Source: Beroe forskalii | Taxonomy: Eukaryota; Ctenophora; Nuda; Beroida; Beroidae | Assembly (NCBI GenBank): GCA_011033025.1 | Contig: WFMF01000061.1 | Coordinates: 186,001-250,000 of the forward strand | Reading direction: 5' to 3' | DNA: 64,000 nt | Part shown: positions 3,373 to 62,138 of the stretch, in pieces | Layout of the letters: every line of letters begins with the position of its first letter | How positions within the stretch are numbered: the first letter of the stretch is position 1 | Position numbers and translations under genes: made by a program | The notes under the pieces: model-generated | The model's database searches: none | Told to the model about the DNA's origin: nothing | Seen by the model: the letters and a program-made list of their open reading frames with translations, nothing else

Positions 3373-4166
3373 TTGTCTCGTAAGGTAGGCGATGCAAATC
3401 TATATTGCGGTGTTCAATGCAGATTTAATTGGAGAATAACCATTACTGGCGCCACTAAACTTCTTAAGTTCGATAATTATTGTGAATCGATTGAATTCAG
3501 TTAATTCAGTGTCGGTATTTTTAGGAGAGAGAGAGCATATTTAGTTCTTTGAACATATTTTGACTAAGATATTAAGCGTGATTCGTGAAGCGACACGTCA
3601 TTCTGCTGCATTTGGTATGTCTGCGTTTTAACCGTCTTTCAACGTCACCTTTTAAAAGAGTAGATGTTCTGTCAATATGAAATATAGTAACAATTTCCCT
3701 AAAGTGTCTATCCGTACGCTGCCAATATATCCCATTCTGTTCCGCCCTCTTTAGACACCATCACCATCTGATATATCGCTACACCTTCCACCAGGAAATG
3801 ATACGGTCAGTACTTGAGCAGGAGAAATAGGTGAGACGATAATGGGGGAGGCGGTTATCTAGCCAAATATTATGGGGGGTTACCGGGTTTATATATTGGG
3901 GTGGTTAATCCTGTCACCCCCGGGTTTATTAACCCCGACACAACGTTTTACAAAAGCCGGGGTATATATAAGCCCGGGCGAGGGGGGAGCAGCGTATTGC
4001 AACAACAGTGTCGCGACACTCTGTGTTTTTTGTGGTTTTTCAATCTTTCTTCTTCTTCTTCTTAATGGATTCTTCCCATAATCTTGTGAGTTTCTTAATT
4101 TTAAAGTACCATGATAATTATGATAAGGCTCATTTCTCCGTTGAAATTTAAGAAGGGCTTAGACTG

Positions 4167-4245
4167 AACTTAAGTTCATGGATTAATAGTCAGGAACTTA
4201 AGTTCATGGATTAATGGTCAGGAACTTAAGTTCATGGATTATTGC
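4167..4245 (+). repeat. Triplicated ~29-bp tandem repeat
   Basis: Three successive units are built around ACTTAAGTTCATGGATTA with minor differences between units. It lies about 550 bp upstream of the first homeobox exon. No function can be inferred. Confidence 0.7.
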
Positions 4246-4794
4246 TCTAGAACATAATAGTATGTGTAATGTGGTTCATTACAATGACTTGCGACATCCT
4301 CATGCATCCTCTCTATCCCTGGTTAAAAGGCATGGAAATATTCTGAGAAAAACCAGGAATTCTAATCAAACTGCAGACTTGGTCTGAGCAATATCTCTAC
4401 TGGTATTTAATATTTAATGTGCGGCGGAAGCATGAGCTAATGTTCCGGCCATTGATTGTCCCCTCAATATAACCACGTTAATATATTTATCGTAAGAGAA
4501 CCATTTCTCCGGGAAACACTCACAATATGTTACCATGTCAGTTGCGTCTGGGATGTCAAGTTAAGTCAGGTCACGTCCACATTAGTCAATGAATATCTGT
4601 CAATATTGCTACGTTTATTTGTCAGCTTGGCATCTGACGTTTCTCCGGGCCAATAGGGAGCTCCCTTCTCTTGCCACCGAGCCGGTTTTAGCCAATGACA
4701 GGCCGCCGTTAGGGTTGGTGATGTCCATATATTTAATATTTTGATGGAACATTAGCTGAAGTAGCGATGCATTATTCATTGGACTTTATTTCAG

Positions 4795-4965
4795 CTCCCC
4801 CCGGCTGCTCACCTCCCAGGCCAGAGCATGGACATGCAGTACAAATACGAGCAGCTGAGCAAGTACGCGTGGAACCCCACCCCCAAGAAGAGTCCTTCCA
4901 GGAGGGGTATCCTGCCCAAGGCGGCCACTGAGCAGATGAAGGACTGGCTCTTCAAACATCTCGGG
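4795..4965 (+). CDS. Pknox: Homeobox exon A: N-terminal arm, helix 1 and TALE loop start
   Basis: The exon is preceded by a TTTATTTCAG acceptor and followed by a GTAAGA donor, 171 nt with phase 0 at both ends. It encodes 57 residues ending [10 protein letters not shown], which is homeodomain helix 1 and the beginning of the TALE extension. The frame is open back to the acceptor, so the internal ATG at 4828 need not be the start. The GC-rich codon usage contrasts with the AT-rich flanking introns. Confidence 0.88.
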
Positions 4966-7900
4966 GTAAGAGTCTGGGGAGGCTCAGGGTGGTGTTATAA
5001 TGTGGGATTTAAATTAAGTTGATTTTAGTTTTAAACTTTATGCAACACTACTTTATGCAATCAAATTTGAGCAGGTCGAGTAAAAAGCAATGAATGATTT
5101 TAATCAAGTTGATTACCGATTTAAAAGGTACTTGAACCGTCGAACAGTTTTTGTACTAAATTTTACAAAACAGAGTGCTAAAACTTTTTGTTATTACTAA
5201 AGCTGGTTAGTTGTCCTTTAAGTTTATCATCGTATCGACCAAAATTTATTCATTTTTCTAAAATTTACTCTTTTCAGCACCCGTACCCGTCAGAAGATGA
5301 GAAGCGTAAGATTGCACAACAGACCGGACTCACAATCCTCCAAGTTAATAACTGGTAAGAATATTATTTCTGCAAGATCCGGCAAGATATATACAATTTC
5401 TAATGTGTGCAAGATCATCATTTGCGTCGAAATTTAGCACCTAGCGTTCAAAACACCCATGCTAAGGACTGCTGTATGAATTATTCAATAAGTGAATAAG
5501 TTTTCTCGGTCAGAAAGCATTGATACGTCATTGTTGTCCGAGAAAATATTCTTCTCGTGTCGTGCGATCATCATATTGTATTATTGAAGTCGTGACATAC
5601 AAAAGCAGCTTTAAAAGCAATGGTGATTATTCAAAAACATACGTTTGGCAAATAAGGTGTTTTTGTCATGATATATCAATTTTTATCGCGAGATTTTAAA
5701 ATATTGTGTTCACGAAGAATCAGAATATGCTGATACTGTGACCAATCCAGTCCTTCGAAGAAACATAGTTGTGTGTCCATTCTAACAAAACAACATATCA
5801 AATAAGAAGAAGTTTATGTTCTGATTCACGCAGATCAATTGTCCGCACCAAATGCTTTCCCTCACTACTTACTGACATATTGACAGTTTTAATTTCGACA
5901 TTGGTAGAATGCATAATTCATAATGCATAATGGAGGTATTTTAACAGCTGTCATATAGTGTGTGCATTGAATGGAATTCACAGTGTGTAGTGATATAGTG
6001 ACATTTGTACCAAACACTGTAAAATGCGGTGAGGTGTATGACATTAATTGGGAATGTTGAGACAGCCCTGAGGTCGTTTCAAAACTCTGCTGCTGCTGTC
6101 ACAGTACAGCTTCTCCAAATCGACACCAATGATAATCTTCTGACATCATCGGCCGGAAAATTCACGATTGTTTTCATCTCACCAGCCCCGTACTATCCTC
6201 ACAGATCTTCCATTTCTCGTAGCTCCTGAGTAATGGTTTTCCAGCCAGTACCTTCTGGGGGTCCATTCCGAAGCAGAACTAGATTCAAAAACCGAATAAG
6301 AAAGTTGATTGCAAATTTACACCACAATTTTGACTTGAGTTCGTTTTTGACTTAAGTCCGTTTCGGTAAGGACCCCTGTTTCTCTTCTGACTCCTGGTTC
6401 TCTCCTGAGAACCAGGAGTCAGAAGACAACTGGACAACTGGACACTGGTCCACCTGAATGCTTCCTTTACCCTCACTGCTGAGACACATTAAATAAGTGG
6501 TGTGCAGGCTGTTCATTACTCTCAATGAAGGAGACAATCGTCGAAACATTAGATAAGCCTGATAATGTGCAGGTAATTAAGGCTGATTAGGGTAGGGTGG
6601 TGCTGGTGAAGTATAGGCGCTGTGACCTAGTCAATAGAACACCTTGTGTCCTTGTAATGACATCACTAGGGGGTATCTACTGTTCAGGCAGGGAGTTGAG
6701 GAGGCTTTGGTAGCGTGTCAGGGCTACCCCCTGCCCCTCGTCCCTAAAGACGTCCTGTTATCACTTCCCCACCGGCATCTTTCATCCTTACTTCATGCCT
6801 TGACCCAGTCACCCGGACTTTCCCAAATTAAATCAGTGTCATTGTTTTAAACGAATTCAGTAACTGTAGACTTTTCAATATAAATTACGGGTTATAAAGG
6901 TAATAAGTGGTGTTCTCTTTTCATGTGAACGGTCACACAATATAAGGGCAACATTAATATAAGGGTAACATTATAACAATCACCCGTCTTCAAATATGTG
7001 GTGTTTTGTCAATATATAATTCCATGGAGTGATAACACTACTAATTGTGTGATGATAACAACTCATGATTAGTTAGTCCTCGCTCAAATATACTTTAAAA
7101 TCATGGTTCGGTAATAATTTGATTTTTGACTCTCTCTCGGCAACGCGATAAGGACAGCTCGTTAAATTAAATGTGGAAAATATGCCGGAATATATTTCAC
7201 AAAACCTGAAGTGCCACCCTCTTTTTTTAATGTGACACGTGCGTTCCAGGGCTGCGTTTTAATTTGTTTCCATGGATATTAGTAACAGAGTCGAGTGTCT
7301 AGAGGGGCTTGTTAGCACTGCCAACTGAATGACTGGCACAACAGGGCATCATATTATGGGGGTCTTATCATCCACATATTGGCTATTCATGAATAGCCAA
7401 TTATTATCGTAGGTGCTGAACACAAACGTTTCTGTTATCACCAAGCTTCGAATATTATTAACTTATCAATGTTTTTCATAATTATGATTTACGGAACTGA
7501 TTCATTAAACAAATGATGGAGAAATAAATTATTCATGGCCTATCATGACTTGCATTGACGTGAAGAAATAAAAAAGTAAAAACTAAGATACCAAGCTCAT
7601 AAAACTCCTAACAACCATTTCCAGGTTTATAAACGCGCGGCGGCGTATCCTGCAGCCGATGATGAACGAGGCTGCGGCGCAGAACCGCGGCGGCAGCGGC
7701 GGAAATGGCGGCGGCGGCATCAGGAACGCGCCGAACAAGAGGATAAAACTGAACCTGCCAACTCGGAGGGAAGAACACTGCTGGAGCAAGTCCCCGACCA
7801 ACTCTCCTACCACACCGGTAAGAGGGGGTTTGGAGTCTGTTTAATGTCTCCAACTGTGTCTGTTCACTGGATCTCCAACTGTGTCTGTTCACTGTCTGCA

Positions 7901-10900
7901 AGAGTGTCTGTTCAATGGGTCAAACTGAGTCTGTTCACTGTCTCTGTGTCTGTTCAATTGTTCAATGCCTCCAACTGTGTCTGTTCAATGTCTGAAACTG
8001 TGTCTGTTCAATGTCTGTACATCAATTCCCGTTATTAGACCTGTTTTGAATTCTATGCCTGTAGGTATTTGTTCAACTGTATATAATTTCTAGTGCCTGC
8101 TAGCAATTTTCAATGTTCAAACTTTCAAATTAGGTTTCTGATATAATTTAAATATTAATTTTCTGCCTGTTTAGAGTTACTTTGAAAAAGGTTAATCTCT
8201 ATTCACGGTCTCCTCACTACACTGTAATTGTATTGTTCGTTGCCAACAGGCAACGACCACTTAATACGAATTTTAAAATGTTTATTACTCAGTTGCCACG
8301 TACGAAATTCTCAAACAACTAATTCTTTCAAAACAATGGAGGTTTTTTCGTTCTTCTTTGCATTGAAGGGAATCAATATGTGTAGTGATATAGTGACATT
8401 GTACCAAACACTGTAAAATGCGGTGAGGTGTATGACATTAATTGGGAATGTTGAGACAGCCCTGAGGTCGTTTCAAAACTCTGCTGCTCATGTCACACTG
8501 CAGCCTCTCTAAATCGACAGCAATGAGAATCTTCTGACATCATCGGCCGGAAAATTCACGATTCTTTTCATCTCACCAGCTCCACGCTATCTTCAAATAT
8601 CTTCCATTTTCCGAAGCTCCCAAGTACTGTTTTTCCTGGGTGATCATCCTTCTCCAGTCGAGTACCTTCTGGGGGGCATTCCAAAGCAAAAATATATTCA
8701 CAAAATACTTAAAGAGTAAGTTGCAAATTTACACCACAATTTGATATAAGTCCGTTTTTGACTCATGTCCGTTTTCGGAAAAGAATCCCGGATTCTCTTG
8801 ACTGTTGCTTCTCTCCTGAGTACCATCTGGTTCTCTCCTGACCACTGGACACTGGTCCACCTGAATGCTTCCTTCACCCTCACTGCTGAGACACATTAAA
8901 TAAGTGGTGTGCAGGCTGTTCTTTACTCCAATGAAGGAGACAATCGTCGAAACATTAGATAAGCCTGATAATGTGCAAGTAATTAAGGCTGATTAGGGTA
9001 GGTTGGTGCTGGTGAAGTACAGGCGCTGTGACCTGGTCAATAGAACACCTTGTTTCATGGTTATGACATCACTAACTGGTGTCTAGTTTTCAAGGAGGGA
9101 GTTGAGGAGGCTTTGGTAGCGTGTCAGGGCTACCCCCTGCCCCTCGTCCCTAAAGACGTCCTGTTATCACTTCCCCACCGGCATCTTTCATCCTTACTTC
9201 ATGCCTTGACCCAGTCACCCGGGCTTTCCCAAATTAAATCAGTGTCATTGTTTTAAACGAATTCAGTAACTGTAGACTTTTTAAGAGTAGTTATTGGTCG
9301 TGTAACAGAGTGGAGTGCCGAAGGCACGACACGATGTTACACGACCAATAACGCTCTTATTTTTCGCAATGCAGATAAGAGGGATCGATTGCCGTCAAAA
9401 AAGTTGACCTAAATGCATGCATTCATGCATTTTCATTCACGTGACTTTGTGCACCAATAGCAGCCCGCTACGGGCCTCCCCTGACCCTGTCTCGTGGCAT
9501 TTGAGCTTCTACTAGTGACTTCAATGCAGCTACATTACTGGCTGATATGTCTGTCACGTCAGTTCCGCGTGCTACGCATAATTCACTCTAGAACACGTGA
9601 CCCGGTCAGGTTGAATGGAGGAGAAAATACGAGATTTATTGAACGGCAAGCTCAGGAGGATCAGCTGCGGTATTTGTAATTGATAGGAAGTTAATGCAGT
9701 CACTTCAGAAATTTTTACGGATTGTGCGCTTGCTCTTCGCATTTGCTGTTGACTACTAATGTTTTAATCATTTTCTGCTCCGGAGTTCACAGATAGTATC
9801 AATCATGTGCGCTCAAGTACATTAACCGTATGATGGAAAAAAAACATGCTAATTACTAAAAAGGTAGTACCCGCGTCACGGCACAATCCATTTGTCTAAT
9901 GTTTATTGTAGCATTTCTGTTATCTACACCATTCGCAACGCCTATGATCGTATTCATGAATGAATGAAGTTCCAATTATTACGGCATAGGATAAGGAATT
10001 GGATTCTTTTTAAAGCAATCATTACGTGATTATACTTATTCTTAATTTCAATACGTTTTTCATAACCTGCCGACGAAAAATCCTAACTACCTATGACGCA
10101 ACTATGCTCTTCCCCTCTCGTGTGACATCCTGAATATTCATATTGGCCCGTATCCAAGTTTTTTACTCCATAGGTAATAGATACCATCATGTTTCACGTA
10201 CATGGGTGCAGTAACTTTTGCCTCGATATGAGCTCATTATTAGGTATCAAAGTAGCAAGTCAATAACATTCAACCGCCAATTTTTCGTGCGTGCATATTT
10301 GTAGATTTGCTATAGTAAGTTGGGAATCGGATTATTCTGATGGGGCAGGTCAAGTCATAGTCACGTGACATGGTCAGGTGACCGTGTCACGTGGTAGCAG
10401 CCTACCACAAGGTTCGTCACGTGGTCACCACGTGACCGCTAGGTGGCTACCACGTGACAGGCACGGCCAACAGAGCGAAAAATAATATAAATTACGGGTT
10501 ATAAAGGTAATAAGTGGTGTTCTCTTTTCATGTGAACGGTCACACAGTATAAGGGCAACCTTAGTATAAGGGTAACATTATAACAATATCACCCGTCTTG
10601 AAATATGTGGTGGTGTTTTGTCAATATATAATTCCATGGAGTGATAACACTACTAATTGTGTGATGATAACAACTCATGATTAGTTAGTCCTTGCTCAAA
10701 TATACTTTAAAATCATGGTTGGGTAATAATTTGATTTTTGACTCTCACTGCAATGAGATAAGGACAGCTCGTTAAATTAAATGTGGAAAATATGCCGGAA
10801 TATATTTCACAAAACCTGAAGTGCCACCCTCTTTTTTTAATGTAACACGTGCGTTCCAGGGCTGAGTTTTAATTTGTTTCCATGGATATTAGTAACAGAG

Positions 10901-13900
10901 TCGAGTGTCTAGAGGCTCGTTAGCACTGCCAACTGAATGACTGGCACAACCGGGCATCATATTATGGAGGTCTTATCATTCACATATTGGCTATTCATGA
11001 ATAGCCAATTATTATCGTAGGTGCTGAACGCAAACGTTTCTGTTATCACCAAGCTTCGAATATTATTAACTTATTAATGTTTTTCAGAATTATGATTTAT
11101 GGAGAGGATTCATTGAACAAATTATGGAGTATTAGATAATTCACAGCCTATCATGACTTGCATGGCGTGAAGAAACAAGGACTAAGATACCAAACTTATT
11201 AAACTCTTGACAATCCTATTATTTCCAGGTTTATAAGCTCTTAACAATCCTATCATTTCCAGGTTTATAAACGCTCGGCGGCGGATCCTGCAGCCGATGA
11301 TGAATGAGGCTGCGGCGCAGAACCGTGGCGGAAGCGGTGGAAACGGCGGCGGCGGCATCAGGAACGCCCCGAACAAGAGGATAAAACTGAACCTGCCAAC
11401 TCGGAGAGAAGAACACTGCTGGAGCAAGTCCCCGACCAACTCTCCTACCACACCGGTAAGATGAGGGTTTGCAGAGTCTGTTCACTGTATCTGTGTCTTT
11501 TCAATGTCTGTTCACTGTCTGCAACTGTGTCTGTTCAATGGGTCAAACTGTCTCTGTTCAAAGTATCCAACTGTGTCTGTTCAATGTCTGTACATCAATT
11601 CCCGTTATTAAATCTGTTTTGAATTCTATGCCTGTAGGCGTTTGTTCAACTGTATATAATGTTCAGTGCCTGCTAGCAATTTTCAATGTTCAAACTTTCA
11701 AATTAGGTTTCTGATATAATTTAAATATTAATTTTCTGCCTGTTTAGAGTTTCTTTGAAAAAGGTTAATCTCTATTCACGGTCTCCTCACTACACTGTTA
11801 TTGTATTGTTCACCAACAGGCAACGACCACTTAATACGAATTTAAAAATGTTTATTACTCAGTTGCCACGTACGAAATTTTCAAACAACTAATTCTTTCA
11901 AAAACTTCCAGTTACATTGTTTTAGTTTTTTGTCTCAAATGTTAATAATGTGTAAATTAATGTTACAGTTCACGTTCATCAATTGTGCGACGCACCCCTT
12001 CCACATCATTGAGACACCAGTCTGTTCTAATTTACATTATTCAACTGTTTTTTATTACTTTACTCCATTATCAAGCATTAACAATGAATACCTCAATAAT
12101 TATTGATGAAGGTACCTGAATGATATTATGAATGTTAGTTTTTCAAAGAACTATGAAAATGGAGCAGTCGCGAAAATAAATGAAGTTTCCTAATCGCCCG
12201 CGTGAGAAAAAATTCAAATTTCAATATGAGAATGTGAGGAAGAAGTGAGGTTTTCTCCAAAAATCAGCTATCCATGTCTTTTGCCAATTTGGACAATTGC
12301 CCCGGCTCTTACCAGAACATGAACACTACTGTCATTACTTTTACGCTTGATGACAAACTCCAATAAACCCGATTATGTTCATAATAACCCTAATGTCACA
12401 ACTATCTTATCATAAAATAATAGGCCACTTCTAATACCATAATGTATTATGGTATTAGAAAAAACGCACAAAAAACGCACAACCAGCAGCTGCTAAAGGG
12501 AGTTCAGAGGTTGGCAAACGTACTCATTACGGGAGCCTTACCTTCGACCCCAACCACAGCGCTGGATGTCGTCTGAGATTACCCCAATCACGCTGTGGAC
12601 TAGGGAGGTCGCTGCGAAGGAAACCATGCGTCTGAAGTGCCAAGGTCATTGGTGCTTCCTCCGCCTGGAAAGCCTTCAGCGCGCATCACCAGCCACATCA
12701 GTGAGAACGAAGTTTATCAGGGCCCTGCCCAAGGATTTAACTTCCAAAGAACAAGACCCGATGAAACCGATTCTCAGTATAAACCAACGGTTCACTGTGC
12801 TAGTCCCGTCTCGGGAGGAGTACAAGGAGCCGAAGGGTGAGGACTTTGATGTCGTGTGCTATACGGACGGTTCTAAAATCAACGACCACACGGGAGCAGG
12901 AGTAGTGATCAAAGGTGGACCATCCTTGAGTCACCTGGACCACTGCGAATCCTTCCATCTTGGGCTACACAGTACGGTGTTCCAAGCAGAAGTCTTTGCT
13001 GTTGCTAAAACGGCGGAGATACTGCAGGGACACGCACTGAGTAACACCAAAATCTTGATAAATTGTGATAGCAAATCGGCTATTCAGGCGATAAATGCTA
13101 CGATTATCAAGAGCAGGTGCCACTTCGGGCATCAAACTCCCTCAACTCACTTGGAATCACCAACGAGGTCACACTCAGTTGGATTCCAGCCCACAGTGGG
13201 TACGAGGGGAACAGGCTGGCCGACCAAACAGCAAAAGCTGGGGCGACCAACTCAAACGACAGCGCATCCAGGGTCTTACTCCCCATACCGCGTGGGGTAT
13301 GTTTCGCGGCAATGAGGAGGAAGACCAAAGAGGACTGGATAAGCTCCTACAAAGCTGATCCTCCCAGAATGTTCAACATGATGTGGAGGGACAAATTGCA
13401 AAGGAGCTGTCCAGTATGGATAGGAAGGATCTGAGTGGCTACTCAACTCCTGACAGGTCACACAGTCCTAAACTACCACCTCAAGAAACTGAACCCCGCT
13501 GTCCCTGCAACCTGTCCCTTTGCGAAAGCGAAGATGAAACGGTATCGCACTTCCTGGGAAATGCCTCCCTAGGCAGTATTAGGGCCGAGTACTTCGACAC
13601 CTACTACTGTGCAGGTACCGACATTGTGGACAGGTTCAAACTCAACAGGATCGTCAGCTACGCCCACAGGACTGGTCGCCTGGAACCTAAGAGAGTATGC
13701 GACGATTCTGCAACTACTTAAGGCACTGTCCCTCACCGGACTGAGCCTTCAGTAACAGGGATATACTCAAGCCGTCCTCAGAGGATATCGCGGAGGCATC
13801 CCTCGCTCCGGCCGCAGAAGGAGGGGCTCGACCCCGCCGCTGGGCTGGGAACGCCATTCTGTCCCGACAGGATGGCAACGGGGAGGAACGGGACTCTCGT

Positions 13901-16900
13901 CCCATCCGGGCGCTTGGGACCTCGGAAGCGCTTGTCTCGGCCGGCAGCTTCCTCTCCTGGGCGCCGCCTGGGCCCTCGCAGGTCCATCCCCCTTCTAGTA
14001 GTAGTAATACCATAATGTAACGATAATAATACTCGTTGACATTTCTGAATTTGACAGATTTGACAGATTTGTCGCTACGCGCTATTTATAAATTTGGGAA
14101 GTTTCATGGAGATTGCTGAGAGGAAAAGGCTTTTGACAGCTCTCGGGCCATGATGCTTTGCGATGCATAATGTATTACATCGAGCAGTTTATGCCGTAAG
14201 CTCATTTTTCTGCCTTTGAAATATTTCATTAAACTGTCAATGCTAATGCCGATTCAATAATATATAACACTTTAGATTGACACAATACATGTACGATGCT
14301 TAGATTGACATCGGTTAAATTGACGCGAATAATCATTGAAATTGTTTGGCCCAACGAGACGAACAGAGACAAAAACATCAGTGTGGGTAATGAACGTGGT
14401 ACAGATACTAATAGCATTGCTGCTAAATTTATAAGCTCATCAGTGCCTGTTTTAGTAGAAGGATAATCAATTCGCACCAGGCGTTCTGCTGATCGGGTGT
14501 ATTTTCATTGTTACCCCGTTTATTACTAAGTGCACGTCACGTGTTACGTTTTAGTCATCTAATTGGCGGCTTTCACCCCTTCCCTGAAAATAAAGTCTTA
14601 TTTTGCTCTATATTTTGTGGGAATTTCTCTTGATTTCATTCCAACCGTATCTTACGTGCTGAGAAAATATTTCATTTATTTCCGAGCAGAAGTTTGAAAA
14701 TGTCCGTACAACTCCTATAGTAATTTATATTTTCGGTGGTGGGTATAGACTCTTGACATTTTCCTGTTGAAGTCTTTGTGTCGAATATAAACGTTTGATT
14801 TGTGTCACACACAAAAGATGAAAGTTCCGGTGAACCCCCGTTATAACGTGTCCTGGAAGCCTGGCAAGGGGCCGTGTTTAAAACCAACCTCCTGACACTT
14901 CTAACCCATTCACTGAGCACAGAGCAGCTAGCTTTGACTGCGAGCGTTACACGAAGTTCCAACATGCGATTGTACCCTTTCTCCCGCTGCTATTGTTGTT
15001 ATTATTGTTGTTTTCAATGTCTGTCAAACGCAGCACACAACAGCTCTTTCTGTTGAAAGTTTACCTACTTGAAATTGACAAGTTACTGGTTCTCTCTGTG
15101 TGTGAATGTCCGACACACAGGGCACACAGTAGGAGCTGTCAAACACGTATAAAACACCAGTAGTAACAGCTTACCATTTGATGGTGCCGCCCATCCCCAA
15201 CACAAAATACCTCAAGTGGAACGGAGCCTAGCAGCAGAGTAGCTACCCTGTGTGAAACTCCCGACCCTCCCTGCGTCGTCCGCGGAGTGTCGGCAAATAT
15301 CATGTTCCCTCTGAGGAAGCCGCACAACACAACACGTTAACACATGTAATATGGGCAGTGAAAGTAGGAGCGGAACACCTTTCATTTCCTTCGTCGAGAT
15401 GTCATCTAAATGGTCTGAAGGAATCTGGAAGATATAAACCAACAAAACTTCAACTTTTGTGCTCCTTCCTTATATCAAACTGTCGTGTACATTGTACTCT
15501 CCGGATACTTTAGCCAATAAAGCCATACTTAGCTTGGACTGGGGCCTACTAACACAATCACTACCCGAGGAAACAGACAAAGTTACCATTTAATTGGCCC
15601 CAATATAACTGAATAATTGTCAAGGTTGTAGTCTCCCTCGCGTCACGTTGGTTGAAATTTCGCAAAGTTATGGTCTCTTCGAGTCCTTTCGAGAGGGAGA
15701 GAGGAATCACAAGCCTGGCAAGAGAGGGGCACCGAGTGAAGTCATTGTTTCAACCATTTTATACTTTTGTACATCTGAAAAATTATAACATAAAGGACAA
15801 CTTTCTAGGGTCAATGGGGAGCTAGCTTGCGTCAGCTTTTTAGGGAGCCTCATATAATTGATAAAATGATTGTTTTGTTTAACCATTTATTAGGTTTCGC
15901 AAGTTGACAAAACATCAGACAGAGTATTTAAAGTGCTTTCTATGAGGCGTGAAGTTTCTAAATAATCTGCCAATCGACGCATTGCTACTATAATGTCGAC
16001 GCTGTGGGGCGTCGGTATTATACTTCGCAACCCGACTGATAGCCTGATAGGTGCTTCAGAATGATGCTAATATTGTGGTTAATGACATCCGAACACCTTT
16101 TTCATAATATTTGAGCTGAAAACTTATATAAAATCTTCTATCAGAAGGAAGCCTGAGTTAGAAATGGAAGCCATCCATTGAGGTTTTGTATGATGAAGAT
16201 GCTAAGATGCTAATTGTTAATCTTAATTATATAATCTAAAGACAAAGCAGTGTGTCTTTCCGCCAGTAAAACTTTTAATTTGTAAAGTTGTTAACCTTGT
16301 GATTTCTTCCATGTCATTAGCAATATAGCATTCTTCTTTTCTCTGAATCTTTTACTATAGTACCTTTTTTCTCTAAATCTCTATTATAGTACCTATGGAT
16401 CATAAAATCTTCCGATTTATCTCACATTCTCACCGCTGATAATTTCCACCTTCAATACCACCGATCATCCCTCTAATATATAAAACAACAATACACGTAA
16501 CAGTAATACTTGTCCATCTGTTCCTCCTTTTCCTCTTGCTGCTGCTGCCAATGTTTCATTATATTCCCCTGATTTGACAATGCCAATTTACCGGACCCAC
16601 CTGGCTTTTTGCTATTGGCAATTTCAGGAAAAAACACTCCTTTATGAGGCGCACAGCTGAAAGATGGCCGACATCTGTGTCAACAATTCACCATTGTAAA
16701 CCCTGATAATCACATCACTAATCGTCGCGTGATTACGGTTCGCAACCTCACCGCGTAACCTATCACATTACTGCTAATCTTGTCAACTGTGCACCTCAAA
16801 AGAGATGTAAATCTGATGTCCTCTGCTAGACACGTTGCTCTGACAGCGACCATTTGGGTGCAACGTGCTGATCTGACCACGTGACCACGAGGTAGTGCCT

Positions 16901-19900
16901 TAAAATATATAGCTGATTCAGCGTCATCAACTCACCATTTGGTGCTCTGATAATGATGTCATTAGGTACCACCTGCCCTTATGTTTGAGACTTGAGTTAG
17001 CTTCACAATGCCATGTTTCGACTTGACATGTTGATTTTTTCAATATAATCCATGATCGGCACAAAAGTTACAGTAGCATTATGATATCTGAGCTGGTAGC
17101 AGTAATGTGGTTATTCTAACACGATTACGGTAATGGAAGTCATCAACATAAGTCTCCTTGAGATGTACCGAATCACAGCAGCTCGAGTTATATATCGTAC
17201 TTACTACTTCTGACTTTTCACCGTAAACTTCTTGAGTGCGATATTTCCTCTTCACAACCGGTGGAATTCGGGAATCCAAATCATGTGAAATAGACCTAAG
17301 ATAAAGCCTGTCTTCTCTTCCCCCAAACCTGATGGCAATGAACGTGTGTAATAGTTAAGGAGTGTCAATTGGCATGAGCTTAGTAAACAGTAGTAGACGT
17401 GAGGTGGAACTGGCGAGGTACTCCAACTAGATGACAAAGTTAATGCGATCAGGTCTGATTGGTGTCCCCCTGGCTCGGTCACCCTCAGTTGTACCTTGTC
17501 AAAACACACGGGGGCGCTCACTAGGAGAGGTGCTCCGGTAATGGTTTTAATGGAGCCCTGCCACTTGTACACCCTCTACTGCCGGGTAGCAAGTGTCATT
17601 ACTGCCACTCATATGTTGGTGGACCAGCTCTGAGATGCAGGGTAGTCGGGGTAGGATGACGTCATTATCAGGGATTAGAATGGGGTGTTAGTGACGTGTT
17701 GAAGGGTCTATATTCCTAGCACGTGTAATGTGATTGTGTGCATTCCAGGCTCCCGGTGGCGAGCTCCGCACACAGACTCCAGCTCCTCTAGACGGTCTGT
17801 CTACAACCACATGATTATTATCAGCCCCCGTCAAACATCTCGCTCTCTAGAGTCCAGGGGACAGGAACTAAGCTGGGGAACGGTGTTTTTACGGAAAAAT
17901 AATAATGGTTTTTAAGTATTTTTTGGCATCGAAGTGTCCGTTGTCCATAATCCATTGGTCCCTGTGATTAGTCTCCTGTTGGAAGATGGCTGGTAATTGG
18001 GGTACTACAGTACTACTGCAACTTTGCGCGGTTTATCGGTAGCCTGAAAAAGGTAACATTTTCTCATTATTTTTAGTACTACTACGACTCGAATTGAATT
18101 TATATTAATGAAATGGAAAGTAATACGATGATAAAAGTTTGATGGGGCCATCATCGAAATGATGATAATAATATCATGAAATTTTCAAAGTTTTTGAAGT
18201 TTAATAGTCGGGAGGATAATTTATTGAGTCTATTTACAATGCCTGAGATGGTTGCTGCGCATATTGACTTAAAACGTTTTACGAGGCTCTATTTGCGTAT
18301 ATAATTTGACGGCTATTTGTTGAAATTAACACTATTCATGTCACCACTAATTCCACGTCGCGAGTCCGCTGCTATTTTGACATTGAAAGATTTCATTAAC
18401 ATGAAAACGATCTCTCTCTGCCTTTCAAAGCCACTCTCTCACTCTGTGTGCCTTCCTCTCCAGACATTCCAGCAGCTTGAGGAGCTGAAACCTAGAGCTC
18501 ACATAGCGGTAATATAGAATGGTTGATCCCGCGGTTAGCATGGCGTTGCATACTATGGGTTAACATGGTAGGAAATGTCTACCCTGTAATGGTTTCAATT
18601 AGTTTTGAAAGTTGGTACCAGATAGTCTGCACTGTATATTCTAAGTGGTGCTCTACTACCGCTCACCGGACAGGCATTACTATTCTCCGGAGGGTGAAGT
18701 GACGTCATTGTCATGGTTTAGAATGGTGAATTGATGACGTGAAATAAATCTTGTTAATTTTCGTAAGCGGGGTAGTATTTTCGTTGTATGATCCACGGAA
18801 GATTCTATGATCGGCGTCGGCATAGCTGCCCTCCGAATTTAAAGGACAATTATAGGCCAAATACTTTCAATAAATTCCATTTGTTTGTAGTTTGCACTGG
18901 CTGATGGGCGTACGGAGCAAACAAACAGTGAATGATAAACACAAACAATCGATAAATGGATACAATTAAGCCGCTTTGCTTGTCACATGACCTGGATTCA
19001 AGGTCACTGAAACATGTACCTTCTAGCCCACCACATAGTACGGATTATTGATTCAAGATTTCTTTCGAAATTTCTGTGTGCCAAATTACAGATAATAAGA
19101 AGCAGGATGGTTTCCAATATTCCGTACCCTCCTTTCTTCACTAATTAATATTTCACTATTAAGTATTCTGGCCTTCTGAGTTTCTAAGTCATTTCTCAAA
19201 TATATTCGGACAAGGACAGAATGGTGGACCCATGATAGATTGCAGTACTCGGTCTTTGTTCCACCGATCACATCGGAAGTAGGGTTAAATATATACTAAA
19301 ATATATATTAATTATATTCTAAATATATACTAAATATATACTTATATACTGCTAATTATAAGTCTCTTGTTACGATACCAGCACCAGAATCCGTATTCTG
19401 GGGCTGGCGTTTATTTCATGTGATTACTTTTTAATAGCAGAGAGAGGCAGGGGCTTTCTTAGAAAACTTTAATTAAATGTTCCTCGATTTCGTGAATGAC
19501 AATATCGGAAACAATAGGTAAGTTTTGTCTCATTATTCTTTCCAAACATGACGTAACTATAACATGAGATTGTGGTGAAATGGCGGTACATCGCATGAGA
19601 TTATGAATTTTCTAATTTGGTACCATTGGGGATTCTTTAAAAGCTTTCAATGAGGTTCTGAATGTTATGTTAGAATAAGGAGTGTCCTGAGGTTCCCATC
19701 AACTTTCAAGTTTTTTTGTTTCCTATTCAAATTTCGTCCTCTAATAAGCAATTAACTATTACAATAGTAAATCCTATCATCATTCCTAAGAATGCTACTG
19801 AAATTCCTACAGACCACCTAATGAGTGGTAGGAGCGTGGTGGCATTTTATGGTGGGGGCCTCTCTACAGAATGCAATGTGAAACGCAAGACAGCGCCGTT

Positions 19901-21981: not shown

Positions 21982-24900
21982 GATGCTTTTCAAGCTGTCT
22001 CAAGACTTATGATTTGACAGCTGCTTAGAATAATTTTGAGGGTTAAGCGGTTGGAACCGCATCATTCTGTCTAAATGAGAAAATGTCTTGGCCGAGCCAT
22101 CCGTTCATTTTTATTCACTCGACAGAAATATTTTGGAAGCACAAGTTGTAACTAACTAACTTACGAGAAGTATACTAATTGCGAGTAGGATAAAAGCTGC
22201 TGCTGCTGTGAAATGGTTATCTTAATGGAGCCAACAATTTTGCATTCCCGTCGGAATGGTAATTTCCACAGTGCAGGAAGAAGTCAATGAATTGGTGGAC
22301 TTACCACAGCAGAATATGATCAGAAGTGTCGTTAATTCTGCGTCGTGGTCTTTGACATAGGAAGTCAGGCGGGGCTGCAGCCTGATATTCGGCATGATAA
22401 TCGTATCAAAAATCAATAACGTCTCACTCCCCTTGCTGTTAGAATATCGTACTGACATATTCTCTGAAATCAATTAAACTTCCAAAATGATCTCCCGTTT
22501 ATTATCGCTCATAAATCACGGTATTTTAACTTAGCTTAACATATAATGGGGTGTCACCTATTTTAAATATATACTGAAACTCAGTAAATGTACGATAAAC
22601 GAAATGTCTGTCAATTTATCTTCGTGACAGAATTACCCGAGAGATATTTTAAAGTGTTATTTTCAAGAATTCCTCTCCTTGACCACTGACCATTCATTAT
22701 CTGAAGATGTTTTCTGTGGAATTAATTATACATTAAATAAGATTTATATAAAATCACGCTTGATAGTGGCAGTGTCTGGAGACTTCAAGAGTGCCTGAAT
22801 CATGAAGACACGCTCAGACAGCCCAGAGCTTCCTTGAGCTGCCTACAGTAGCGGGAGTAACATGATTGCAATGATTGTTACACCTCCGTTACACTGCCTT
22901 CAGTAGCAGGCGTAACATGATTGCAGTGATTGTTACACCTCCGTTACACCTTCAGTAGCTGGAGAAACATGATTGCACTGATTGTTACACCTCCGTTACT
23001 CTGCTACAGTAGCAGGAGTAACATGGTTGCAGTGATTGTTACACCTCCGTTACACTGCTACAGTAGCAGGAGTAACATGGTTGCAGTGATTGTTACACCT
23101 CCGTTACACTGCTACAGTAGCAGGAGTAACATGATTGCAGCGAATGTTACACCTCCGTTACTCTACTTCAGTAACAGGAGTAACATGATTGCAGTGGTTG
23201 TTGCACCTCCGTTACACCTTCAGTATCGGGAGTAACATTATTGCAGTGGTTGTTGCACCTCCGTTACACCTTCAGTATCGGGAGTAACATTATTGCAGTG
23301 GTTGTTGCACCTCCGTTACACCTTCAGTAGCAGGAGTAACATGATTGCAGTGGTTGTTACACCTCCGTTACACTGCTACAGTAGCGGGAGTAACATGATT
23401 GCAGTGGTTGTTACACCTCCGTTACACCTTCAGTAGATGGAGTAACATGACTGCAGTGAATGTTACACCTCCGTTACACTGCTACAGTAGCAGGAGTAAC
23501 ATGATTGCTGCCTTCAGGAGTAACATGATTGTAGTATTGTAGTGACTGTTACCCTGGAGCTGATGGTATATAATACAGGAGTGCCCTGAGATCAGCCTAC
23601 ATTAACAGCATTCTGTTAAGTGACATTAATGGCAACTTTCTCTTATTGTCATGACTGCTGGTAGAAAAGTTCTTTGACACCTTCTCCATTGGTAGTCCGA
23701 ATCTCCTCCTGAATTTTCATTGGCCGGATGGTGATCACGTGAGGATTTCCATATTGTGGATGGGAACTGTGAAATGTCAATCCGTACTATATAAGCCTTG
23801 GGAAAGCTGTTTGTGCACACTTTAAGTGCATTTACAGACGTCAATCAAACAGGACTGTAAAATACCGACATGTAACATGCGGTTGAAATGTAGTAGCCGC
23901 TAATTCACTCCATTATGGGGTGAGTGTCATGGTGGAGAGGAACATTACTATAGTATGTGTTTACTAAATAGTAACGATTCTAAAATCCCAAGTCTGTCTC
24001 TCCTGTTATATAGGTATCGGTCTATAATGGTGCGCACCGAGATTTACAAAGATACGAGGTTTAGATTGAACTATTGTTATAAGGGTAAATTGAGCGATCC
24101 GTCGAGGCCAGTATCACGCCAGTATCGCGCCAGTATCAGGCCAGTACCACGCCAGTATCACGCCATTATCGCGCCAGTATCAAGCCTACCTCACGCCGTT
24201 ATCGCGCCAGTATCACGCCAGTATCGCGCCAGTATCACGCCAGTAGCGCGCCAGTAGCGCGCCAGTAGCACGCCAGTATCGCGCCAGTCGACACTTACTT
24301 TAAGCCAGGACGCCAGTAGCACGCCAGTATCAGATCATATACTGGCGTGTTACTGGCGTACTGGCTTAAAGTTAGGTTCGACTGGCGCGATACTGGCGCG
24401 ATACTGGCGTGCTACTGGCGCGCTACTGGCGTGATACTGGCGCGATACTGGCGTGATACTGGCGCGATAACGGCGTGAGGTAGGCCTGATACTGACGCGA
24501 TACTGGCGTGATACTGGCGTGGTACTGGCCTCGACGGATCGCTCAATTTACCGTTATAAGTGTGTAATATGGTCTGAACCAGTTAATTGGAAATGCTTTA
24601 TGCTTCGATTACTGACTACTTTAAACTGTTAAAGAACTCAGTTTTGCGAAAAAGTGAAATGACATAGATAATATATAATATAATGGTCTGGATAATAGAA
24701 TAAATTCAGCATTTACGTTTTGAATAAATCATTCCTATAAAATGTTATCAACGTGATTACCCAACAATATGAACTCTTCTTATTAATAGTACTCTCTTGG
24801 CATTAAATCAACTCATAAAACCACTCGCTATATTTTCTCATTTTCATAGTTACAGTGAATAGCAATTTCCCTTTATCTTATTTTCAACCGTCTGTCAAGT

Positions 24901-27900
24901 CTTGAAGTTTTCCCATTCCCGCTTCCTTCTCTACAGCTGTTCAATGCTTAGTCATACTGAGAACAAAGGGCGACGTGTAAACACTCAACGAGTATTCTCC
25001 AAGGAACAGGTGCACCTCAAAAGTTTCACTTTTTATTCACGAAAAAACATCACTGATTTATACGTGGATATATTCGATTTCCTTTATTAAAAGTGTCCAT
25101 CCTTCTAACTTTTTTGATTAGCAACAGTGGTCCTACATGTTTTGTGCATCGGGAGTGAAAAGATGTGTCAAAAACGCTGGATATTTTGCTCCATGAAAAA
25201 GTGAACGAAAAAGTCACGTTTCACCTCTGGAATTATAAAATTGACCCTCCGTCAAATCATCCCGACAAATCTTTTACTTCAATCTGAATTTAATTTCATT
25301 CCGAATATTCTGCCACGAATTTCTTTTAATTAGCTTCCCGGGGTGACCGCGGCAGGTTTTGATAAAATGGAATGCATTCTAAAAAGAGAGCGTTTCATTT
25401 ACCATAAAAACAAATACAAAAACTTCACTGTGACGTGAATAATTTGACCTTAAGTCGAGAGAGAAAAGGCAAATGTAACTTCTCACGCAGAAAATATGTT
25501 CTCCACATTAATACTGTCTTTTGTATCTTCCAATTGATTGTTCTGCGTATCTTTTATTTTCAACTCTCGAGCGTGCGGGCAGCGAGTGAAATTACAGCAC
25601 CTTTTCTTTGACGTGTCCATTGTGTCGACCAAATATGTGCTTCCCAACACGCTGCCATGCAATATATTCTGACTCGCTGAAGTCTCCCACCCATTAGGGG
25701 CTCAGTGGTTGTGTGGTTGCAAAACACGTGATAATCAGGCTTTAGAGTGGTGAACTGGTGACGTCAGGGCGCCTGTTTTTGTATCCGCTGCAGAGACCTG
25801 CAGTCGAGTTACAAAGGGGTGAAGGGGCTGAGAGCGAGCTGATGGAAAGACTTTGTGACGCATTGATTGAAAATATGTTGAAAACTCTCGTACCATTAGA
25901 ACGCTCTGAAATTGCAGTGGAGAAATGGTTGATGCTAACCCGACAACTCCTGTCATATAGGATGCCAATTTTTAAAAGCTTTCTGCTTAGAAAACGTTGC
26001 AATGCTGAATGCCATTGAGAGAGAAATATTTAGAAATGTGTGTTCCCATTTTGATGAGGAAGTCTCTGATAAGGATCTTGATCACATAACTTACATACTT
26101 AAATTCGTCCTTTTCGTTTTGACAACATCGCTCCCTCTAACAGATCCTCATTGCCGATATCATGTTATTTGAGCGAATGTTACATTGGGACGGCTTTTTG
26201 AGACGTAGTGTTTCAAAGACGGCACTTTATTCGAGCCCTCTCATTCGTTACCGTGAACTTGGCTAACTAAGGGGTACAACAGATCGGCATACTCGCCATG
26301 TGTACACGCAGACATTCCAATCATGCGATATCCTGGTCGATTAGTTTGTTAGTCTGTATCTCCTGGCATTTGAGATGCCGTGTAACTCACTTTGCAGAGC
26401 CAATCTTATGGTCAAATTCAAGGTGAATTTTCAACTTGCGTCACCTGAAATGTTTCAATTGAATAATATTGGCGGACATTTAATTTCAGAATTGCAATGA
26501 AGACAGGTTCATGTGAAAGATGGGGCTGTTCATTTTAATAAAGTATGTATGTGGGAATGTGTCCATTACGAGGTTTAACACTTGGCATTTTCATTGATAT
26601 TTCCCATAGCACATAATCAACTTTAATTCGTCCCAGTAGCCTGTCAAAGACCTTGTTAATGTGGCCCATCAGACTCATGCTAGTAAAGTAGTAATAATAT
26701 GTGTCCCAATGTGTCATCAAGTATAATGCCCCCCAATTCACTGCACTTAAATATATTATATACCATGTTATCACAGCATATATATATTATTACATGTTAC
26801 TGTTCATATTAATGACAGTTACCCCGCAAAAACCACGCTAATTATTGAAGTCACGTGACTGGTTTGTGTGTGTGAATGTGTGTGTGGGTGGCTCTCTTGT
26901 CAACGGTGGAGGAGGAATTTTCCCATTGTCGTAATAAATATAATATGTGTTCTGTCTTCCCATGTCAGAAACATTGTTAAAAAGAGGAGAGAGAGGGCAC
27001 ACACATTTTAATGAAGTAGCTCTCTCCTCCCTCCTGCTGTCCCATTGATACAATATGTGTTGATGTGTTGCAGTATGTGCCATTAACTGATCCGGATATA
27101 GCCACTGAGTCGCACATAAATGTGAGAGAAATTGGGTGCAATTTGGTGGGGCAAGTGTCACACGGTCAAAGAGATACTAGCTCTGGATATCGACTTGATA
27201 TTGCACCTATACCCTGCACTGCTTGACAATTGATGCTTCACCTGCAGGCAGCCACTGATTTTTCAACCAATACACGGCTTCGAAGTTTCAAAATTCTTTG
27301 CATATAATTAAGAATATATTGTGTTAAAATCGGTGTGAGAGAACCCGTGGAATTGTATCTTGAACAAAAAATGCGCATCTGATAGGTTAAAAGCAAATTC
27401 CGGTGGTATGAAAAAAGAACTAAAAAGCATGAGGTGGTTACCTACTTAGGCCTATTCTCATAAATTTAGTACCTATTTGTCCTATTTTTCTCCGTAATTG
27501 GATCTCAAATGATTTTTGCGACTGCACCATAAAAACATACGACAAAACATGGGTAGGAATAATACAATACCATTTGTATAATCCGTACTTCAGTCAATAT
27601 GGGATTGAATAAATTATATCTTTTCAGATCACACCCAAGCCATTGCCCGGGATACATCGACCTTCCCGTAAGTATTGACACGACTTTTATTCTTTTATTG
27701 CACCTATTCTGAATTATTTATATAGTCTTCCATAATGACATAATGTCACGATAGCTTACTTCTGTTACCTGAAAGGTTTGATTTCTGTCGAACTGCAATG
27801 ACAATTGACAAGATAGATATACTCAAACTCACAAATACTTCAAACAATCAAGTTCTCATGGAAACGAAATCTGGTACCAAATAAGGGCCATAGCTCATCC

Positions 27901-30900
27901 AATATCATTGAATGCTAGGCATGTGTTGCAATCAGACTTTTTGTTCAATATTTCATGGACTCATTCCACCAACAAAAACACGTGTGTTTGATGGTTCTGC
28001 TGTGATTAGAAACCACGAAAAAGCGGGCAAAAAGTTTGCCAAAATCACAGATTAGGTGTCAAATTTAAATTGGATTCACAGGAGGTAAGAAGTGCACCGG
28101 GTGCAGCGACCCTCACATAATTAGGGAGCCGTTAATACTTCCCATTAAACACACGCACAGTGAAATCACCCACAGTATTGCTGTGTAATGTGATTACAGA
28201 TTAAGTAGTGCCTTGCACAACAGTTTAATTATTATAGCCTGCTGCTGTCACCATGAAAAACTTTAAACCTTGTCATGGTACTAGCTAGAGAACATATAAT
28301 ATAATAGTGTTTGCTCCTTTGGCAGACATGTGTCCTAGGAACGCTGGACTGTTGACATCGTGAATACTTTTATATGCTTTTAACACCCGCCAACAGAGCT
28401 TATAATGCACTTAAATTATTATCTGTGCATGTTGGCGCTAAATAGCTGATATAACACACATAGAGGTAAGTTGTACATGTTCTGACAGGGTCCTTACTGC
28501 GGGATATACGCTGGTTTATTTGTAAAATATAGCTAAATGGACGCAATTACTTGTCTGTCCCAGTGCGAGAGTGCCCGAGGTGATATTTCAGCTGTTTAGC
28601 CAACTTGTGAAGTAGTGGTACACTGTCTCGTGTATTTTAAAATAAAGGTGAAAATCAACCAGGGATCCATAATAGTCTATTGTCTTACATAGAGGACCTT
28701 GCGTGGTATTTATTCCTGGCGCGAACAACAAATTTGCATGGTACTAGGCAATCGTTAACATAGATTTTTTGCGCGCGCGCGAATTCTGGACGGTGCGCGT
28801 AGATGAACCACATGTTGAATTGGGCCGGCAATAGCCCGGCAATTACATTAAAACCTCCTGACTCTGGAATGTGCTTTAAGTTTTCCTCCCTTGCGCGTGA
28901 TTATTTGAGACAATCGCTTGGTTCTGACAGCTCTCAGAGGCACAAATTAACGCAGCAAGATTTCAAATTGCCTTGGCAGACGATGACCGGTAATTATGTG
29001 AATAAAAATAACCAAGTCCGGAGCTCACTGGTACGGTGGGACAGGGTGGAACGGAACCCTTAACAAATCACAGGCTTGACAGGACGCTATTACTGACAAC
29101 TTAATTTTCTATTTGACAAGTCTAGAGTGAGATATGAAAATGGGTAATGTAAACTAAAATGTGAGCAATGTGACAAATGCAGTGATTTGGTCCATGGCCG
29201 TGCCTGGCATCACTCTTAGACTGCCCGTCAATTTGTCATATTCCAACCTATCACAAAACCAAATTATAGAGGAGTAGAGAAGGAGAGCATCACTTGCGTA
29301 GACTGTCAAAGAGAGTACGCTGTGTTGCAGTTTCTCTTTAAATATTTAATTGTATCAAAGTCAAGCTATAACACCATGAGAATATTGCCTTCTTCTTCTA
29401 GCTTCCTCAAGTTGCTACAATCGTATCACACCAATTTAAGCCTAATTACTCTCATGAAAATGTGGCTGTTTTTAATTCCAGAGCTGTGATTCTTCCGGTT
29501 ACATCATCAGTAAGGCTCGAACAGGACGGCGTCATGGTAACAAATTACAGTTAAATGCTTGCCGTGTGGTGTATAAACATTGGAAAATGGGTGGAAGGAT
29601 GACAGCTCATGCCAGTCACTCAATCATGATCATTCACACACAATCCTACTGGAGTTAATCACAGTAATTTGATTGGATAAAGTAACTAACCAACTCAATT
29701 TGATTGGATAAAGTAACTAACCGGCCCTTGTTTCAGCTACAATGGCGACATCCACTGGATCCCTTCTGAGTCCGCTGCTCGCCCAAACCTCGCCTCTTCT
29801 CAACCCCCAAACCAACTTCCTGGATACCCTCTCCAACTACCCCCAATCAGTCGAGGAGCTACAGGTAAGGTTCATATGAATGTGGGTGGTTTTAAACGTC
29901 ATTATTACATTAATTAATATATTGATTTACAGCTCGAAAGAATGGTGAGACATGAAATTTCGATAACACTTTTACCACCTTTTGTTCTTGTGCTATTAAA
30001 TTTTAAACTTAACGATTATACTGTACCTAAACGTTGGCTTTTTTCTTTTTTCCATGATCAATGAGTTTCACAATGGTTCTCGGTTTTAACAATGGTGTTT
30101 TCACTGGAATTTCACCATGGCGTTTTCTATGGATTACACATTTGATTTCACTATGGTTTTTTCTATGGACTACACACATTCGATTCCACAATGGCGTTTC
30201 GATGTATTTCACAGTGGCGCTTTCTGTATATTTCACTATGGCGTTTCCAATGGATTTCACATTTATCTTCTCATTGAATTGGCGTCGCTTGTCAATATGC
30301 AACATATTGCGTGATGTTGTTGCAGACCAGCTAATTTGTGATTTGCCTCTTGGACCGATACTTGTAATTGTTAATTCTTGTAACTGTAACTTTAATAAAT
30401 TGCAACAATTGTTGCACCCCGTCGCAGCGTGGTACAAACGATAAAAATCATTGCTACGTGCCGCAAGTACCTACATAGGTGATTTAATAGTGCATCTCCC
30501 CTGCCTTTATGTTGTCGGCTTACTTTTCGGCTAATATTTCAAGGTCTATTACATATTCTCTGTAGTTCCGGCTAAGTGCCACTTGGCACATACTCCCCGC
30601 ATTGTGTTATTTACCAATGACGTATAGCGGTAATGTGACGTGTAATGCACCCAATCCCCGCAGAAACAACAGGCTCTGGCAGCTCTCAACACTCAGGCTC
30701 TGACAGAGGCTTTCAAGAAGCAGCAGATGTCTGCGTGGCTGCACAAGAACCAAATCCAAGACGTGCTGCAGCCGGCGATGTTGCTGAACGCACTGCTGGG
30801 AGCCCACTCGGACAACAGTAGCGTGGTAAGTAGAAAGCCGAGAGTTCGGGTGTCTACTTACTAAGTAGACACCAAACCTCTTTAATCAGCACTCGTTAAC

Positions 30901-32301: not shown

Positions 32302-33251
32302 AAGAAGAAATACCGAACAAGTTAGAGAAAGGAAGAATATATGTCTTGTGCAAGCAGAAAGTTGCAACCAGCTCTATTGAGAAAATGTGAAGGAAGAACG
32401 CTCTGGCCAGATATAAGTTAAAGAGATAGAACGCATAGACACAAGAATTCAAAGAACTTAAATTCGGGTTTATAATCTATACTTTAATGCAACGTTTTAG
32501 TTGTCGAGCTATCAAGAATGTTAACTTTCCTTATGTCAAGAATGCTATAATACCCTCCCCGATATACTATATTCTTTACCCTGCTATAGATCAGTCAGCT
32601 TATAGTTAATAGTTCATAACCACGTTTGAAATAATGAAATATGTTAGTTCCTAAATTTGTAATTTATGTCCTCCACTACTCCAATATTGAATCTATCACT
32701 AATTATATTTCTGCCTTCTCCTAATACTATTATTTTGCAGTTTTAAGTTATGTATATAATATTCAGATTGGTCAGCGTGCGAAATGCGGCCTATATTTTC
32801 GAGTTAGTGCGTTGATAGTAATATATGGTAGTATGTATCAAACAAAATACGGGTTAAAGGTAGATTGCCTGCAAGTTCTTTTTATTATAATCTGCGGATC
32901 ATATTCGACATTCCGTATACCATGTGCCGTTGTATATGTAGTTACCTATACTTAAGTCTGACAATTATGTCAATTGTTTAGCATCAACCATATTATAAGG
33001 ATAGAACATGATATTTTCTTGATCACTTAATTTTAAGGAGCCATTAACAAAATTGAATTAATTTCAGTAAAATTTAAATGCTAATATTTTTAGTTAGAAT
33101 TAGACAAGGTATATGGTGTCACTGTCTGATTGATCTGCATACTGGATTTTAGGCGTTTCAGTCCAATGATGCTGCATGCGCTTGTGAATTGGCTGATTTT
33201 GCAATTGATAAATAAACGTCACTTCAAAACATAATTACCCACAGCGATAGA
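32302..33251 (+). other. Probable 3' UTR and downstream of the PKNOX-class gene
   Basis: AT-rich sequence after the TGA at 32299-32301 with no frames. The first consensus AATAAA in the likely transcript orientation is at 33211-33216, so the 3' UTR may be about 0.9 kb. Confidence 0.5.
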
Positions 33252-62123: not shown

Positions 62124-62138
62124 TTTCTTGTCAGACAA

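Follow-up and report, generated by a model that had tools for sequence, protein, structure and literature searches.

We analyzed a 64,000-nucleotide stretch of the genome of the ctenophore Beroe forskalii (GenBank assembly GCA_011033025.1; 216 Mb in 1134 contigs), corresponding to positions 186001–250000 of contig WFMF01000061.1 (hereafter C703). This whole stretch is referred to as the window, and coordinates are window positions unless a contig is named. The COX1 gene of the assembly, on contig C1134, matches that of B. forskalii with 100% identity. The window carries the homeodomain exons of a Pknox gene, with the exon encoding the recognition helix of the homeodomain present in 2 copies, A and B (Table 1). 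Both copies are 193 nucleotides (nt) long, encode the same 64 residues, and retain intact splice sites (AG/G upstream and CCG/GTAAG downstream, the slash marking the exon boundary). They differ at 9 sites, each a third codon position and each silent, exactly as an original prediction made from the sequence had described them. The duplicated DNA extends well outside the exons and forms a head-to-tail repeat with a unit of ~2.4 kb; the junction between the copies (8333/8334) is gap-free, and the window contains no N. Copy B alone carries a 1.2-kb insertion of a high-copy repeat, for which 80 genome matches, many near full length, were found among the best 40 of 178 candidates, the best other full-length copy among the candidates scored being 97% identical. 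A minisatellite (7818–8015) lies directly 3′ of exon A.

Judging by its sequence, the gene holding the exon pair is Pknox of B. forskalii, in agreement with the PKNOX class assigned to it earlier, with the homeodomain sequence itself being PKNOX- or MEIS-like. Pfam Homeobox_KN matches the joined protein with an E value of 1.2e-21, and the best solved-structure match is PKNOX1 (1x2n; E 2.7e-27), with Meis2 and Meis1 near-equal at 5.1e-27. Among the 120 listed of 1074 protein matches, PKNOX names are many and Meis names few. The homeodomain contains an HLG loop insert and is interrupted by introns at codons 25/26 and 51, as in MlPknox; MlMeis shares these introns, but its loop reads HLT, so the loop argues for Pknox rather than Meis. 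The Meis_PKNOX_N domain exceeds its cut-off at a single place in the genome, C703:161735–161950 (29.7 bits versus 27), on the same strand as the homeodomain exons and ~29 kb upstream of the first one. A motif search found no exons between this match and the homeodomain, so the link between the N-terminal domain and the homeodomain rests on order and strand. Within the window, the exon with the start of the homeodomain is followed by the exon ending in a split tryptophan codon, by A or B, and by a probable last exon. The N-terminal exon has one relative, P0045 (83% identity over 30% of the query), on a 624-base environmental contig that stops short of the duplicated exon; neither a protein search with the 64 residues nor a search of bacterial and archaeal contigs gave close relatives of the exon pair.

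Silent sites account for ~47–54 of the 192 exon sites considered (50.6 at kappa 2), and the 9 differences thus correspond to a silent divergence of 9 of ~50.6 sites, or 0.178. Without constraint on either copy, all 9 would be silent with a probability of 3e-6 to 1.2e-5; with full constraint on one copy and none on the other, the probability would be 2e-4 to 6e-4. The silent-only pattern is not due to chance, and replacements have therefore been removed in both lines of descent, which upholds the earlier proposal of selection against them. Those lines are either 2 exons of one gene or 2 alleles of one exon, and the pattern is the same either way. It does not follow from this, as had further been suggested, that both exons are expressed and give 2 mRNAs encoding one protein: a single-copy exon with 2 alleles would look the same. 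Likewise, comparing the ratio of nonsynonymous to synonymous substitution rates (dN/dS) between the copies with intron divergence, which had been suggested as a check, cannot separate alleles from 2 used exons.

The introns have diverged, as had also been noted. In a global alignment leaving out the exon and the minisatellite, 156 of 1936 aligned intron sites differ between A and B (8.1%), and the divergence is very uneven, with stretches at 0.6–3.5%, islands at 20–27.5%, and others intermediate; the ratio of variance to mean in 50-site windows is 6.2, compared with a 97.5th percentile of 1.4 in 2000 shuffles. Over the entire unit, counting also the exon and the minisatellite, BLAST pieces show 164 differences in 2282 sites (7.2%). 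Gene conversion, among the explanations offered originally, is an unlikely cause of the protein identity, because the silent divergence of the exon (0.18) exceeds the total divergence in most neighboring intron stretches; exon-specific conversion was rejected as insufficient for this reason. Conversion between the copies could account for the near-identical blocks within the introns.

Inclusion of A alone or B alone in the mRNA yields an identical protein. Together, the 2 exons shift the frame because 193 nt is 1 modulo 3, and a stop follows 14 codons into exon B, downstream of an intact homeodomain, while skipping of both breaks the homeodomain. Copy B also has an extra upstream 3′ splice site (AG at 11227–11228), the use of which would end the frame in FISS and a stop codon. 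In length and phase, the pair has the form of mutually exclusive exons: 193 nt each, equal phases, and homologous neighbors. Complementary words shared by the unique flanking introns (retroelement stretch 12431–14029 excluded) were compared with 60 shuffles, which gave no clear excess of selector/docking pairings competing at the RNA level, one of several mechanisms of exclusive exon choice. In the upstream intron, no complementary 10-mers were shared where 1.9 were expected; in the downstream intron, there were 16 against an expectation of 7.8 (P 0.07). Words longer than 10 nt showed no clear excess either.

For comparison, we examined 264 kb of C703, in which one further large duplication, distinct from tandem arrays, was followed (10–34 kb), 12 of the 17 Homeobox_KN places in the assembly, and conserved gene families. 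The 12 Homeobox_KN places included 3 near-identical pairs; the C936 pair, in which no homeodomain frame was found, stands outside the silent-site counts, and the pairs on C643 and C446/C808 are presumably SIX-like. Silent divergence is 78/491 sites (0.159; replacement 0.029) for the C703 gene, 9/49.7 (0.181) for an exon in the same C703 duplication, 51.5/280 (0.184; replacement 0.026) for the C643 pair, and 16/63.7 (0.251) with no replacements for the C446/C808 exon, the last counted over a 100-codon core because a whole-frame count would include intron. With Pknox included, the 5 comparisons, representing 4 duplications, are homogeneous (P 0.46). Of the 9 Pknox differences, 6 fall at a CpG in either copy, as do 5 of the 16 SIX-exon differences. 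Aligned divergence by BLAST is 7.2% for Pknox, 6.3% for the chaperonin gene CCT, 5.5% and 5.0% for C703, 5.5% for C446/C808, 5.1% for C643, and 2.7% for C936, and is patchy in the control pairs tested, as in Pknox. CCT subunits are expected to be encoded by single-copy genes. The CCT family gave 45 matches on 11 contigs, with one gene present twice, inverted, on C558. Its copies have indel-rich introns and differ by 26 silent and no replacement changes over 6 exon pieces. Silent divergence is 0.097 overall and ranges from 0 to 0.21 among the pieces (P 0.0009 for heterogeneity), these counts being approximate because profile-match ends stood in for exon boundaries and a stop codon is read through in one stretch; non-coding divergence is 11.8% in a global alignment. 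Such a doubled, silent-only, patchy gene fits haplotypes, and a real inverted duplication could give the same. The 25 proteasome matches are spread over 13 contigs, and by position, the only criterion used, none of these genes is obviously doubled.

There is, in our estimate, about an even chance that Pknox has a single such exon, whose 2 parental haplotypes were joined in line by the assembly. Consecutive placement of 2 haplotypes of a highly heterozygous ctenophore genome would create a false “heterotype” exon gain, in which the putatively allelic introns would carry indels and an insertion polymorphism. Each copy would be the sole working exon of its own haplotype, and for that reason both would keep frame and splice sites and change only silently. 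Several lines of sequence evidence suggest this reading: the silent divergence of Pknox is close to that of the 4 other comparisons in the assembly; the CCT gene on C558, expected in single copy, occurs twice with silent-only change; and there is no clear selector/docking excess of the kind that would favor regulated exon choice. Heterozygosity in Hormiphora is 2% for single-nucleotide polymorphisms (SNPs), 3.2% for SNPs plus indels, and 2.4–4.7% by chromosome, according to a report whose authors thought that mapping caps measurable intron heterozygosity (PMC8527503, in part). Long-read assemblies of Beroe ovata were nearly doubled in size, by haplotigs in their authors' view, in the section of the report available (PMC11184263). 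The B. ovata genome estimate of 94.3 Mb, set against the 216-Mb assembly analyzed here, says little, because ctenophore assembly sizes vary widely and include 110 and 248 Mb. A separate haplotig of the Pknox locus was sought and not found, the one further match being 189 bases at 71% on C183.

Other observations weigh against an assembly artefact. A gap between copies, the usual though not universal feature of false duplications, is absent, and the 2.4-kb unit would be short for an error of long-read assembly. The flanks at 3400–5960 and C703:160500–165000 are single at full length; one of the searches behind this scored the best 40 of 538 candidates, and its other 44 matches are short. Since the flanks and N-terminal exon are single and the proteasome is not visibly doubled, the assembly is largely haploid. 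At 0.18, silent divergence exceeds several-fold the heterozygosity of Hormiphora, the sole ctenophore value found. Aligned divergence spans 2.7–7.2% among the pairs, with Pknox highest, and adding CCT (0.097) makes silent divergence heterogeneous (P 0.02). True paralogues may be present among the control pairs: the C446/C808 match extends over only ~1.4 kb in the 3-kb comparison, and Mnemiopsis has 18 SINE-class homeodomains (PMC2959044, in part). Owing to the missing gap, the short unit, the single flanks, the high divergence, and the possible paralogues, the artefact stays near even odds. It is nevertheless the most likely explanation at present, if not a proven one, and it is the outcome that the original prediction had itself named as contrary to its proposal.

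We rate an assembly artefact as somewhat more probable than a real duplication in which both exons are used. The latter would be a fairly old tandem duplication within Pknox, with the exons used one at a time through mutually exclusive or tissue-specific choice, giving 2 mRNAs and one protein, both under selection. We hold this possible, at distinctly less than an even chance. It accords with copies joined without a gap, the examined 264 kb of C703 having N runs only at 54389 and 94459, distant from the unit, with single flanks, and with 2 intact exons whose all-silent change would be improbable (P 2e-4 to 6e-4) were one copy dead; had replacements accumulated at the average rate seen in the 4 control comparisons, 3.4 would be expected, and none were found (P 0.03). 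The exon silent divergence is near that of the intron islands (0.20–0.275), as expected of an old event. Double inclusion, which ends the frame, would also be in its favor: because transcripts with both exons shift frame and stop, and would be removed or truncated, one-exon mRNAs would remain. Against these points, the complementary-word test revealed no sequence feature that would enforce exon choice, a duplicated asymmetric exon with an identical protein brings no evident benefit, and the pattern resembles other duplicate pairs in the assembly. It is rather unlikely, in our estimate, that this developmental transcription factor has 2 synonymous recognition-helix exons that are both spliced, one per mRNA, separated by frame loss and maintained by selection.

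Unequal exchange between diverged haplotypes could have produced a recent, real duplication, in which case the 9 differences would be old allelic variation, uninformative on use; under this reading, one of the exons may be silent, and the duplication itself may be heterozygous in the animal. Such an exchange would explain both the gap-free junction and the allele-like patchy divergence, is consistent with the high heterozygosity of Hormiphora, and has a parallel in an allele-specific tandem duplication counted among true duplications in part of one account (PMC9516828). It nonetheless requires an uncommon event, leaves the double-inclusion frame problem in place, and faces a silent divergence of 0.18 that is still above the heterozygosity value found, so we consider it improbable. 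Exon B could, finally, act as a poison exon that lowers Pknox output, because either its inclusion with A or the use of its upstream 3′ splice site brings an early stop; this is very improbable, as a poison exon has no reason to retain all 64 residues, yet no replacements have occurred.

If the duplication is real, it would provide a clean test of selection on exon choice for RNA-level reasons alone, in a lineage near the base of the animal tree. If the pair is instead an artefact, it would serve as a warning that an intact, silent-only exon pair is the expected look of false exon gain in a very diverse animal, and that dN/dS between copies cannot tell haplotypes from used duplicates.

Table 1. 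Coordinates of the exon pair, associated features, and control duplications.
Feature	Position	Strand	Basis or remark
Pknox exon, start of TALE homeodomain through KHLG, phase 0 end	4795–4965	+	Translation, splice sites, Homeobox_KN
Pknox exon HPYPSEDEK...QVNN plus TG of split W codon	5278–5354	+	
Repeat unit, copy A	5928–8333	+	
Hairpin, 20-bp stem, copy A intron	6383–6426		
Palindrome TTGGCTATTCATGAATAGCCAA	7379–7400		Same letters in copy B at 10987–11008
Exon copy A, FINARRR...SPTTP, 193 nt	7625–7817	+	Translation, splice sites
Repeat unit, copy B	8334–11903	+	Contiguous with copy A, no N between
1.2-kb high-copy repeat, insertion in copy B only	9282–10482 (ends approximate)		
34-nt imperfect tandem repeat	11195–11262	+	Doubles 3′ splice site of copy B
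Exon copy B	11263–11455	+	64 residues as in A, 9 silent differences
Inferred last Pknox exon with stop	17749–17814	+	Phase and splice consensus only
C703 head-to-tail duplication	C703:10173–21406 and 24874–33851		2 open copies of a long minus-strand frame, 13281–15338 and 27338–29398
Near-identical homeobox pairs	C643:70631 and 93546; C446:72930 and C808:1423		
Doubled CCT chaperonin gene	C558:175419–178055 and 214250–216894	inverted	

Several further features were recorded. The copy A hairpin has a copy B counterpart without a hairpin and looks like the product of a templated repair event. A retroelement-like piece lies in a Pknox intron (12436–14012), with an RNase H-like frame scoring below the Pfam cut-off (E 1.4e-4; 22.5 bits versus 25.8). 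Elsewhere in the window, a 4.5-kb tandem array (45359–49892) comprises 115 copies of a 39-bp unit, and further arrays occupy 22846–23508 and 56900–57438. The long frame or frames at 38114–39925 presumably encode a protein resembling DNAJC2, and those at 42355–44306 what we take to be a zinc-finger protein split over 2 frames. On the minus strand, a frame of 851 residues (59583–62138) appears by eye to encode a membrane protein. An Rfam scan at the gathering threshold and a tRNA scan of the window gave no match. By eye, the duplicated C703 frame resembles an immunoglobulin-like transmembrane protein, and C703 contains shorter repeats, such as ~640 bases at 69920 and 70690 with 83.8% identity. 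Two CCT-family genes lie side by side on C691. The AAA family gave 22 matches among the best 19 of 110 candidates, with possible pairs on C606 (83.8–84.5 and 92.4–92.9 kb) and between C692 and C1079, which have nearly equal scores.

The gene shares its HLG insert, its introns at codons 25/26 and 51, and a Pknox-type N-terminal domain with MlPknox of Mnemiopsis leidyi, for which the available portion of the description mentions no duplicated exon (PMC2959044). Titles and the openings of abstracts of the open-licence papers that literature searches retrieved contained neither mutually exclusive exons with identical protein nor a ctenophore Pknox exon duplication. As in the mutually exclusive tandem exons described in parts of PMC6071210 and PMC9013439, an internal exon is duplicated with equal length and phase and with its flanking introns included; unlike in those systems, there is no clear competing RNA structure. 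Whereas the isoforms in the text available of PMC9741552 differ in the duplicated region, both exons here encode the same residues. Arthropod N-cadherin offers a likeness in that alternative exons have been kept with no significant difference between protein isoforms stated in the accessible part of the account, although splicing and expression are conserved there (PMC2655722). Haplotypes are a documented source of false exon gain in assemblies, with the copies mostly separated by gaps (PMC9516828, in part); in the relevant excerpts of PMC2864568, mRNAs with only one exon copy were used as support for it, and most affected contigs with coding sequence held 1 or 2 exons. The Pknox pair departs from the typical case in its gap-free junction and in a silent divergence above the heterozygosity value found, and it resembles false heterotype exon gain, as far as these partial accounts go, in that an exon and its introns occur twice nearby, with possibly allele-like differences between the copies and single flanks on either side.

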